NCBI GenBank assembly: GCA_031265015.1
Contig: JAISDG010000052.1
Location: 1 to 39,193 of the forward strand
DNA: 39,193 nucleotides
Direction: 5' to 3'
Source: Spirochaetaceae bacterium
GTDB lineage: Bacteria > Spirochaetota > Spirochaetia > Treponematales > Breznakiellaceae
How positions within the stretch are numbered: the first letter of the stretch is position 1; the number at the start of each line of letters is the position of its first letter. Both the position numbers and the translations under genes were made by a program. Of this stretch, positions 19,531-22,422 are shown in pieces. The notes beneath the pieces are model-generated. The model saw only the letters and a list, made by a program, of their open reading frames with translations. It did no database searches and was not told where the DNA came from.

Positions 19531-20571
19531 CTACTGATCCTGGGCCTTGGCCGCTTCCGCCCGTTCCCGGTTTGCTGCGGCCAGTTCGTCCAGCTTTCTA
19601 AGCGCCGCCCGGGAAGCCGGACTCAGCCTGGGGCAATTCTCGAATGCCCTTGCGGCGCTGTCTCCTCCCCAGCCGGCGTCAAAGCCGGTGATTTGTATGG
19701 TATCGGGGTAAGTAACGGTGGTAAGGGAAGTGCAGTTCCTAAAAGCCATCTCGCCTATAGTTTGAAGACCTGCCGGAAGGGCAAGAGCGGTAAGGGAAGA
19801 GCAGTTCTCAAAAGCCTGGTAACTTATACTTTGAAGACCTGCCGGAAAAATAACGGACCTAAGGGAAATGCAATCCCAAAAAGCCCTCTCTTCGATGGTT
19901 TGAAGACCTGCCGGAAGGGTAACGGCGGCAAGGGAAGTACAGCCCATAAAAGCCTCCCCGCTTATGGTTTGAAGACCTGCCGGAAGGATAACGGTGGTAA
20001 GGGAAGGGCAGTCCTTAAAAGCCCCCCAGCCTATTTCCACCCCTCCGGAGATGGTTACCGTCGTAAGGTTTTCGCAGCCCCAAAAAGTACTGTTCATAAT
20101 TTCAGTTACCCCCGGCGGGATGGTGATGGAACTGAGCTTTGTAAAGGCAAAGGCTGCCTCGCCAATCGACGTCAGGCTTTTGGGAAGCGTGACGGAAGTA
20201 AAGAGCGCGCCGGGAAACGCGTTCTTCCCAATTTCCGTGACCCCCTCGGGGATGGTCACGGAAGCCAGCTCGTTGCCGGGGTTGTAGAAAGCATATGCGT
20301 TGATCTTAGTTACCCCGGCGGGGATAACAACGCCGGTAATCCCGGGGCCTGCTACAGGATCCTCTTCCCTGCCGCTCCCAATTTCCCTGACCGGTAATCC
20401 TTCAATGGCCGCGGGAAACCGTATCTGCGCCGCTTTGCCGGTGTATCTGGTGATAACCAGGCCTTCCCCGTCGCCGGTTAAGGTTACGACAAAGTCCGCC
20501 CCGATCTGGGCAAAGGCCCCGGCCCCGCACAGCGCCGCCAGCAGCAGCGCCCGCGTCAGTTTCCTCATCAT
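19531..20571 (-). CDS. Exported BspA/TpLRR-type leucine-rich repeat protein
   Basis: Signal peptide MMRKLTRALLLAALCGAGAFAQ; 23-aa repeats such as FENCSSLTALALPAGLQTIGEMAFRNCTSLTTV; SD AAGGAG. Confidence 0.9.
   Translation of the reverse strand: MMRKLTRALLLAALCGAGAFAQIGADFVVTLTGDGEGLVITRYTGKAAQIRFPAAIEGLPVREIGSGREEDPVAGPGITGVVIPAGVTKINAYAFYNPGNELASVTIPEGVTEIGKNAFPGALFTSVTLPKSLTSIGEAAFAFTKLSSITIPPGVTEIMNSTFWGCENLTTVTISGGVEIGWGAFKDCPSLTTVILPAGLQTISGEAFMGCTSLAAVTLPAGLQTIEERAFWDCISLRSVIFPAGLQSISYQAFENCSSLTALALPAGLQTIGEMAFRNCTSLTTVTYPDTIQITGFDAGWGGDSAARAFENCPRLSPASRAALRKLDELAAANRERAEAAKAQDQ
19761..19983 (-). repeat. 69-bp tandem coding repeat within the LRR gene
   Basis: tttgaagacctgccgg recurs at 19761, 19830, 19899 and 19968, exactly 69 bp apart. 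Confidence 0.9.
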
Positions 20572-20810
20572 CGTACTCCTTTGCGTTTAACGCCGCGTTG
20601 TAAGCCCGCCGGCATAATTCCTTAATCCGGACGAAGAATTCACCGCGAAGGCGAAAAAGTCGAAAAAGTATAAGAGGCAGGTAAGGAAAGAAAACGCCGC
20701 TTTCATAACTTCGCGCGGTAAACTTCTTCGACTGCGAACCTTCGGTTCGATTCGACCTCGCGGTTATATATTCTTCCCCTTACGGAATAATCGCGCTCCG
20801 GACCTCCTAA

Positions 20811-21062
20811 AGAAGATCTTCGGACTTCCAAAGATGATCTTCGGAGCTCCAAATAAGATTTTCGAACCTCCAAAGAAGATCTTCGGAGCTCCAAAGAAGA
20901 TTTTCGGAACTCCGAAAAAGATTTTTGGACCTCCAAAGAAGATTTTCGGAGCTCCAAAGAAGATTTTCGGAGCTCCAAAGATGATCTTCGGAGCTCCGAA
21001 AAAGATTTTCGGAGCTCCAAAAAAGATCTTCGGACCTCCAAAAAAGATCTTCGGAGCTCCGG
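20811..21062. repeat. Twelve-unit, 21-bp tandem repeat array with two palindromic cores per unit
   Basis: Consensus AGAAGATCTTCGGAGCTCCAA; all 12 units are exactly 21 bp, no spacers; contains AAGATCTT and GGAGCTCC palindromes. Confidence 0.97.
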
Positions 21063-21210
21063 AGATGATGTATCTGCCTCCCGGCCCGTACCCAGCATGA
21101 ATGTACGGTATCACGGGGCGGAAAAAGGAGTCAACGGCTCAAAAATGAGCCGCCCGCCGCAATTCGAAGTATTGTCGATCCTCCGGGGTTCGTGGTAAAA
21201 TACGTATTGT

Positions 21211-22422
21211 ATGAAAAGGATAGCCTTCTGTTTAGTGTTCCCGCTGTTATGGGCCTGCGCCGGGGCTCCCGGTCCCGGTCCCGGCCATGATACCTACTAT
21301 GTCATGGCCGGGGGCAGCGACCGCAACGACGGGCTTTCGGAACAAACGCCCTTTCGATCGCTTTTTAAAGCCCTGGTGATGGTAGCGGAGGGTCCCGTTA
21401 AAACCGTTACGGTGATCGGCGCCCTTGATCTGGCCAGCGAGCAGTCTTCAAATAACGAGCGGGTTTTTCTTATCCAGGGTACGGGCAGGGATCCGGTTCT
21501 TATCCGGGGAAAATCTTCCGGCCCGGAGCCGGCGGCGCTTTCCGCCGCGGGCAGCGGCCGCCGGGTTATTCTGGTCAAGGGTGTTGTGAACGTCCGTTTT
21601 GAGGAAATAGAAATTTCCGGGGGAACCGCTTCCGGCGACGGCGGCGGCGGCATGGAAATCGGCCCCGGAGCGCTGGTTACCCTGGGATCCGGCGCGGTAC
21701 TTCGGGACAACAGTTCCGGCAGTATCGGCGGCGGCGTGGTCATTGCCCCCGGGGGCGCGTTTACCCTTGACGGCGGCAGAATTCTCAATAACCGCTCCGA
21801 AGGGGTGGGCGGGGGAGTCGCGGTGGTGGGAAAGACCAGCGTCCTGGCTTTCAGGGGCGGCGAAATTTCCGAAAACCACGGCCAGGGCGGCGGCGGCGTC
21901 GCGGTGTCCCAGGACGCGAACTTTATCTTTTCCGGCGGCATTATCCGGGACAATACGGCGGATTTTGCCGGCGGCGGGGTGATGGCCGGCCAGAACGGGA
22001 TATTTACCATGGAGGGGGGAGTTCTCCGGGGCAACCGGTCCGCCGGTTCCGGGGGCGGCGTCGCCCTGCTGGTCGGGGGGAATGTTACCCTCAAGGGCGG
22101 CGAGATCCACGGCAACCGGGCGGCGGAACACGGCGGCGGCATTGCTTCCGATGAATCCAGCGTTATTACCGTCCAGGGGGGCTATGTCTCCGCCAACCGG
22201 GCGGCCTCCCGGGGCGGGGGGATCTTTACCGCGGGCTCCTTTGTTAAGTCCGGGGGGACGATTTACGGAAACGATGTGCCCGAGGACGAATCCAATGCCG
22301 CTCCCTCCGGGGCCGCGGTGTTTGTGTACCGTGATGACGAGGTATATAAAATCCGGGAAAAAAGCGCCGGGGAAAATCTTATTTTGGACAGTTCCGCGGA
22401 TGACGGCTGGGCTGCCGACTAG
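21211..22422 (+). CDS. Putative lipoprotein with right-handed beta-helix / POMP-like repeats
   Basis: Lipobox-like MKRIAFCLVFPLLWACAG; repeated GGGVAV...GGxIxxNxA pattern. Confidence 0.85.
   Translation: MKRIAFCLVFPLLWACAGAPGPGPGHDTYYVMAGGSDRNDGLSEQTPFRSLFKALVMVAEGPVKTVTVIGALDLASEQSSNNERVFLIQGTGRDPVLIRGKSSGPEPAALSAAGSGRRVILVKGVVNVRFEEIEISGGTASGDGGGGMEIGPGALVTLGSGAVLRDNSSGSIGGGVVIAPGGAFTLDGGRILNNRSEGVGGGVAVVGKTSVLAFRGGEISENHGQGGGGVAVSQDANFIFSGGIIRDNTADFAGGGVMAGQNGIFTMEGGVLRGNRSAGSGGGVALLVGGNVTLKGGEIHGNRAAEHGGGIASDESSVITVQGGYVSANRAASRGGGIFTAGSFVKSGGTIYGNDVPEDESNAAPSGAAVFVYRDDEVYKIREKSAGENLILDSSADDGWAAD

Follow-up and report, generated by a model that had tools for sequence, protein, structure and literature searches.

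The array and its neighbours

The window analysed here is a stretch of 39,193 nucleotides from a Spirochaetaceae bacterium, whose source assembly comprises 2.09 Mb and is 69% complete. Between two surface-protein genes it contains a tandem array of short repeats, the subject of this study. The features of the locus are the following, where X denotes a gene family that recurs beside such arrays in related genomes and G001 a congener.

19531–20571, minus strand: neighbouring gene for a BspA-type leucine-rich-repeat protein (Pfam LRR_5, E 1.4e-58)
20501–20779, minus strand: spacer and start of the BspA gene; the homologous stretch in G001:C114 follows X (89% identity, 302 columns)
20703–21098, minus strand: open frame through the array, (LELRRSS)n, 131 aa, probably not a protein gene
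20780–20797, minus strand: remnant of gene X, AGC GCG ATT ATT CCG TAA (SAIIP*), recognised by alignment to the intact X 3' end in G001:C114 (L009 1287–1313) and by the C-terminus of the X family
20810–21061, no strand assigned: array of twelve 21-bp units with majority unit AAGAAGATCTTCGGAGCTCCA and two palindromic cores, AAGATCTT and GGAGCTCC (TRF, unit listing, symmetry, related arrays)
21062–21140, no strand assigned: conserved array flank, common to two arrays of G001 (84% and 79% identity)
21105–21134, minus strand: promoter-like element TTGACT-N18-TACCGT, directed toward the array (from sequence; flank conserved at G001:C114 and C143)
21211–22422, plus strand: neighbouring gene for a right-handed beta-helix protein (Pfam Beta_helix, E 2.7e-07)

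A first-pass annotation of this DNA had described twelve consecutive, nearly self-complementary 21-bp units between two surface-protein genes. This description holds, except that its coordinates were off by one. There are neither spacers nor indels, and listed in the register of the KKIFGAP reading frame all twelve units measure exactly 21 bp. TRF places the array at 20799–21060 (12.4 copies, 85% match, 0% indels, score 347). Eight of ten base pairs form about a single axis of the unit (p=0.01 against shuffles), and the Pfam matches agree with the types assigned to the flanking genes. Within the BspA gene, window positions 19713–20023 hold repeats of 69 bp and 138 bp, which are 23-residue leucine-rich repeats. 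The proposed search of the window's own genome with the 21-mer found related units only once more, where contig C129 ends. The element TTGACT-N18-TACCGT, a predicted promoter, was found again beside arrays in G001.

Arrays of 21 bp and gene family X

Arrays with this period are widespread in the window's family, probably Breznakiellaceae, which are spirochaetes of termite guts. In the family's best-sampled genome (G011) tandem repeats most often have a period of 21 bp, and the next period, 23 bp, reaches 7 in total. TRF found 12 period-21 arrays in 269 kb of this genome, three stretches of which had been picked for GAGCTC matches; another 222 kb, from unselected contigs, yielded 5. Unselected stretches from other family members contained more of them; in 272 kb from elsewhere in the order, outside this family, there were none. 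GAGCTC at 21-bp spacing occurs in 27 of 120 family genomes, in many different unit sequences. Since many matches of the genome-wide GAGCTC scan were unrelated coding or chance cases, we adopted period and position instead. The unit sequence is specific to the locus and differs even inside one genome; conservation lies in the 21-bp period and in the inverted repeat that each unit contains. Arrays have about 2 to 22 copies (median 8), adjacent units are mostly 70–97% alike, and the indel rate is 0% in 38 of 47 arrays. Where both neighbours could be resolved, 24 of 25 arrays have a gene starting downstream on one side or both; the remaining one lies between convergent genes. Copy number, suspected in the first-pass annotation to be variable, does differ between orthologs: 12 in the window versus about 5 in G001:C114, 10.9 versus 5.4 at L337 and L336, and 20.8 versus about 13 at L138 and L249.

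Some arrays deserve a remark of their own. Those at G000:C129:15336-15456 and G025:C546:5404-5688 reach contig ends, so short-read assemblies break there and arrays are probably undercounted. At L006:1848-1900 in G001, (GT)26, a possible slippage site, lies between a promoter-like element and a 21-bp array, 5' of a gene for an outer-membrane-like protein. In another family of the order (G039, JADFDI010000010.1), the loci L273 and L115 carry arrays with a GAGCTC(TGTCCC) core and periods of 13, 14, 16, 19 and 21 bp. Hence, not all GAGCTC arrays keep to a fixed period of 21 bp.

Comparing the genes that adjoin arrays led to X, a recurrent multicopy family of about 220 aa with the C-terminal consensus RGKrvY.A.RWEn..g.KGpfseI.sAiIP. 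By eye this C-terminus is like the last strands of a fibronectin-III fold, for which Pfam fn3_4 gives only E 0.25. No match was accepted in Pfam, NCBIfam, PDB, PADLOC or PHROGs, and no X was found in phages, plasmids or viral contigs. Single genomes hold many matches (24 in G011, 27 in G132, 20 in G001). In a sample of the order X is present in 16 of 119 genomes, all from the window's family, and a phylum-wide sample of 197 further genomes contained none.

The tie between X and the arrays is strong. Among 54 X loci fetched by protein similarity, with repeats disregarded, 45 (83%) have a period-21 array upstream, at a median distance of 89 nt from X. Only 5 of 435 non-X genes (1%) have such an array within 300 bp, compared with 3 of 5 X genes in the same stretches (Fisher p=4e-5). 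Of the nine X loci lacking a period-21 array, one has a 22-bp array, one an 84-bp (4 × 21) array, L325 apparently has about three degenerate units, and four are fragments or disrupted. Unit sequences are related between X genes that share more than about 55% identity and fall to chance level below about 45%. Genome G030, probably of a cultured relative, also combines an array with X, at locus L334. In the reverse direction, only about 10 of 45 arrays adjoin an X gene. Beside the other X-less arrays we found no X remnants beyond chance, a weak match at L156 excepted. A rule placing promoters upstream of arrays was dropped: promoter-like sites show no excess over shuffles there, and their position is inconsistent across the family.

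X also occurs outside the family. Among 36 genomes reached via loci with the GAGCTC pattern, homologs are present in a Prevotellaceae bacterium (16 matches), Oscillatoria PCC 10802, a Phycisphaeraceae bacterium and two relatives of the window's family; Filimonas has a marginal partial match (E 6e-4). The Prevotellaceae, Oscillatoria PCC 10802, Phycisphaeraceae and Filimonas genomes also contain 21-bp arrays. Because these 36 genomes were selected for the pattern, they are not an independent test of the association.

The array of the window is one instance of a family-wide module, an intergenic 21-bp inverted-repeat array with X shortly downstream. Both flanking surface genes are bystanders. 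The earlier suggestion that the array tunes them did not survive the comparison, since across relatives the partner of the array is X, which has been lost here. At the orthologous locus of G001 the order is promoter, array, X and BspA gene, with an intact X at L009 624-1313. The minus strand of the window aligns to G001:C114 on either side of the array, with 80% identity over the promoter-like element and the start of the array, and with 89% from the final X codons via the spacer into the BspA gene. In between, the array passes at GGAGGTCCGGAGC directly into the last six codons of X. A search of the window found no intact X, and about 700 bp of the gene are missing. Since the array meets the final X codons and both flanks align, we regard the array as orphaned by a deletion of about 700 bp. 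The window thus contains an orphan array and no complete module: the inverted-repeat array is there, but no intact X lies downstream. Short homology shared by the last array unit and the 3' end of X probably gave rise to the deletion. In a genome that is 69% complete it could instead be a misassembly.

Explanations for the arrays

Inverted repeats within units are longer than in shuffled units, both in X-linked arrays (p=3e-6) and in other arrays (p=6e-6). Arm positions vary less than the rest of the unit (p=0.03 and p=0.0008, respectively). A hairpin in sense-strand RNA was considered and rejected: per array, arm mismatches show no preference for G:U over A:C (10 versus 14, p=0.54), despite pooled arm cells of 100 A:C versus 57 G:T. 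Folding of the arrays beats column-shuffled controls on both strands, and the sense strand has no advantage. The symmetry data favour selection on DNA over selection on the transcript, although they fall short of proof.

We consider a helically phased array of dyad-symmetric protein-binding sites that controls X to be the best explanation, with a probability of roughly 0.45. This reading is based on the strict 21-bp phase, the dyad symmetry, the conservation of the arms, the position at gene starts and the absent G:U bias; the units are dyad-symmetric sites at whole-turn spacing. The tie to X, the near absence of indels and the copy numbers that differ between orthologs also speak for it. Each unit would be one binding site, and the strict spacing would align successive sites along the same face of the helix and allow cooperative binding by a dimeric protein. 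The candidate binder is X itself or a cognate regulator. Once bound, the protein would set transcription of X, and copy number would tune it. The window's sites have lost this target gene but may still have protein bound to them. An operator-like, copy-number-variable element phased at two helical turns had already been among the proposals of the first-pass annotation and is the best-supported class; what has changed is the partner, which is X and not the surface genes. Against an operator count the lack of a recognisable DNA-binding domain in X, the roughly 35 of 45 arrays without an adjoining X, the inconsistent promoter position and the unrelated units of distant X genes.

One could also argue that the module is a type III toxin-antitoxin-like system. 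The array would be transcribed into a repeat RNA that is processed to single units and keeps protein X in check; arrays without X would persist because loss of X is harmless and loss of the array is not. We think this rather unlikely, yet its layout makes it the strongest rival. A tandem array followed by a gene of about 220 aa is what such systems look like, and most X genes have the array upstream. X seldom occurs without an array and arrays often occur without X, as the proposal would have it, and unit length is kept as sequence and repeat number vary, as in ToxIN antitoxins (PMC5086642). Terminator-like hairpins lie between array and X at 7 of 44 loci versus 0.2 in shuffles. However, the remaining 37 loci have none, and type III systems are described with one. 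Promoter position varies, and strong promoter-like sites occur between array and X at L351, L342, L341 and L329. X is unlike ToxN, CptN and TenpN in Pfam, NCBIfam, PADLOC and PDB, the G:U signature of RNA pairing is missing, and a unit of 21 nt is shorter than the 34–36 nt quoted for ToxIN. Alternatively, the arrays could be functionless minisatellites produced by slippage, with 21 bp a habit of replication or repair in this family and X regions merely prone to it. Arrays without X, copy numbers that differ between orthologs, the fast turnover of unit sequence and higher-order periods of 42 and 63 bp, which suggest block duplication, would all fit. Pure slippage is nevertheless unlikely: it leaves unexplained why arrays accompany 83% of X genes and 1% of others, why inverted repeats are enriched and their arms conserved, and why indels are almost absent though adjacent units diverge by 5–39%.

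It is very improbable that the arrays in general encode small proteins of heptapeptide repeats, 21 bp being seven codons. In the window these would be LELRRSS on the minus or KKIFGAP on the plus strand. The frames noticed in the first pass, KKIFGAP (plus), KIFFGAP (minus) and LELRRSS (minus), are all open, and an ATG of the LELRRSS frame, at 21098, follows the promoter-like element, as is common to L009 and L291. Fifteen of the differences from the majority unit do fall at third positions of the KKIFGAP frame, as counted before, but out of 24 and not 25. This bias is not significant in the window alone (permutation p=0.24), and over 39 arrays the differences between units show no codon-position pattern. 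The KKIFGAP frame ends in EMMYLPPGPYPA*, has no ATG, GTG or TTG ahead of unit 2 and is inverted at L006 relative to the promoter-like element and gene. Substitutions in the LELRRSS frame mostly alter residues. Stops interrupt all six frames at L013 and all three X-sense frames in the X-linked arrays L329, L350 and L379. As the period is held in the latter three without an open sense frame, it is not kept for the reading frame. The excess of open frames per array (3.89 versus 3.19) is weak, because units share descent. General coding was rejected on the codon-position test and the stop counts, and the alternative of an ordinary repeat-protein gene, raised in the first pass, finds no support.

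The class does not show what would mark a repeat-protein gene, an open frame with a start signal and a codon-position bias; L249 and its ortholog L138, from two related genomes, are a likely exception. At L249:3897-4232 (111 aa) and L138:1477-2001 (174 aa) the array lies inside a small ORF with a perfect Shine-Dalgarno sequence (AAGGAG), an ATG, heptad repeats (RTERWES, for example) and the conserved C-terminal sequence KDRK.GSFQPYGL.KQW. This ORF lies directly 5' of a gene resembling a radical SAM protein and could be a modified-peptide precursor locus. Hence, 21-bp arrays can be or become coding, yet coding does not define the class. A 302-aa ORF at L248:8196-9104 has an integrase-like N-terminus and shares its 3' half with a 21-bp array; it is possibly a broken insertion element.

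If the arrays are binding sites, recognition would have to co-diversify with X, since units are unrelated between distant X genes. A tentative extension, which we would not bet on, is a new class of two-part elements that extends beyond termite spirochaetes. Every paralog of X would be matched to one diversified 21-bp array of its own and recognise it at the DNA or the RNA level. If true, one genome would carry at least 20 orthogonal self-recognition pairs. In the papers searched we found no description of such arrays. What looked like an isolated repeat becomes a recurrent module, in which the genes of a multicopy family nearly always have an array in front of them, free to change in sequence but fixed in period and dyad symmetry. 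The pattern suggests either recognition pairs that co-diversify or a toxin-antitoxin-like system, within a major group of termite-gut symbionts, and the array of the window may be explained as the remnant of such a pair.

Comparison with known systems

Each of several known systems shares part of these properties. In the type III toxin-antitoxin systems ToxIN, CptIN and TenpIN a tandem array likewise lies directly 5' of a small protein gene. In contrast to these, the unit here is 21 bp long and dyad symmetric and bears no sign of RNA pairing, X is unrelated to the known toxins in the libraries searched, most loci have no terminator, and a genome can hold up to 27 X matches. Intergenic minisatellites (VNTRs) resemble the arrays in position and in copy number that varies among relatives. 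They differ in that here one fixed period spans unrelated sequences, the unit has dyad symmetry and the tie to X is strong.

Plasmid iterons and parC-type centromeres are direct repeats spaced at whole helical turns beside a gene, an arrangement suited to cooperative binding. Such iteron or multi-operator arrays share with the window's class the spacing of direct repeats by whole helical turns beside a gene. Unlike them, the arrays described here are chromosomal, have a different unit at every locus and are accompanied by no replication or partition genes that we saw. The short tandemly repeated sequences of cyanobacteria are heptamers, and Oscillatoria genomes contain 21-bp GAGCTC arrays. The Oscillatoria arrays show a 7-bp sub-period in places, whereas the unit of the window has none.
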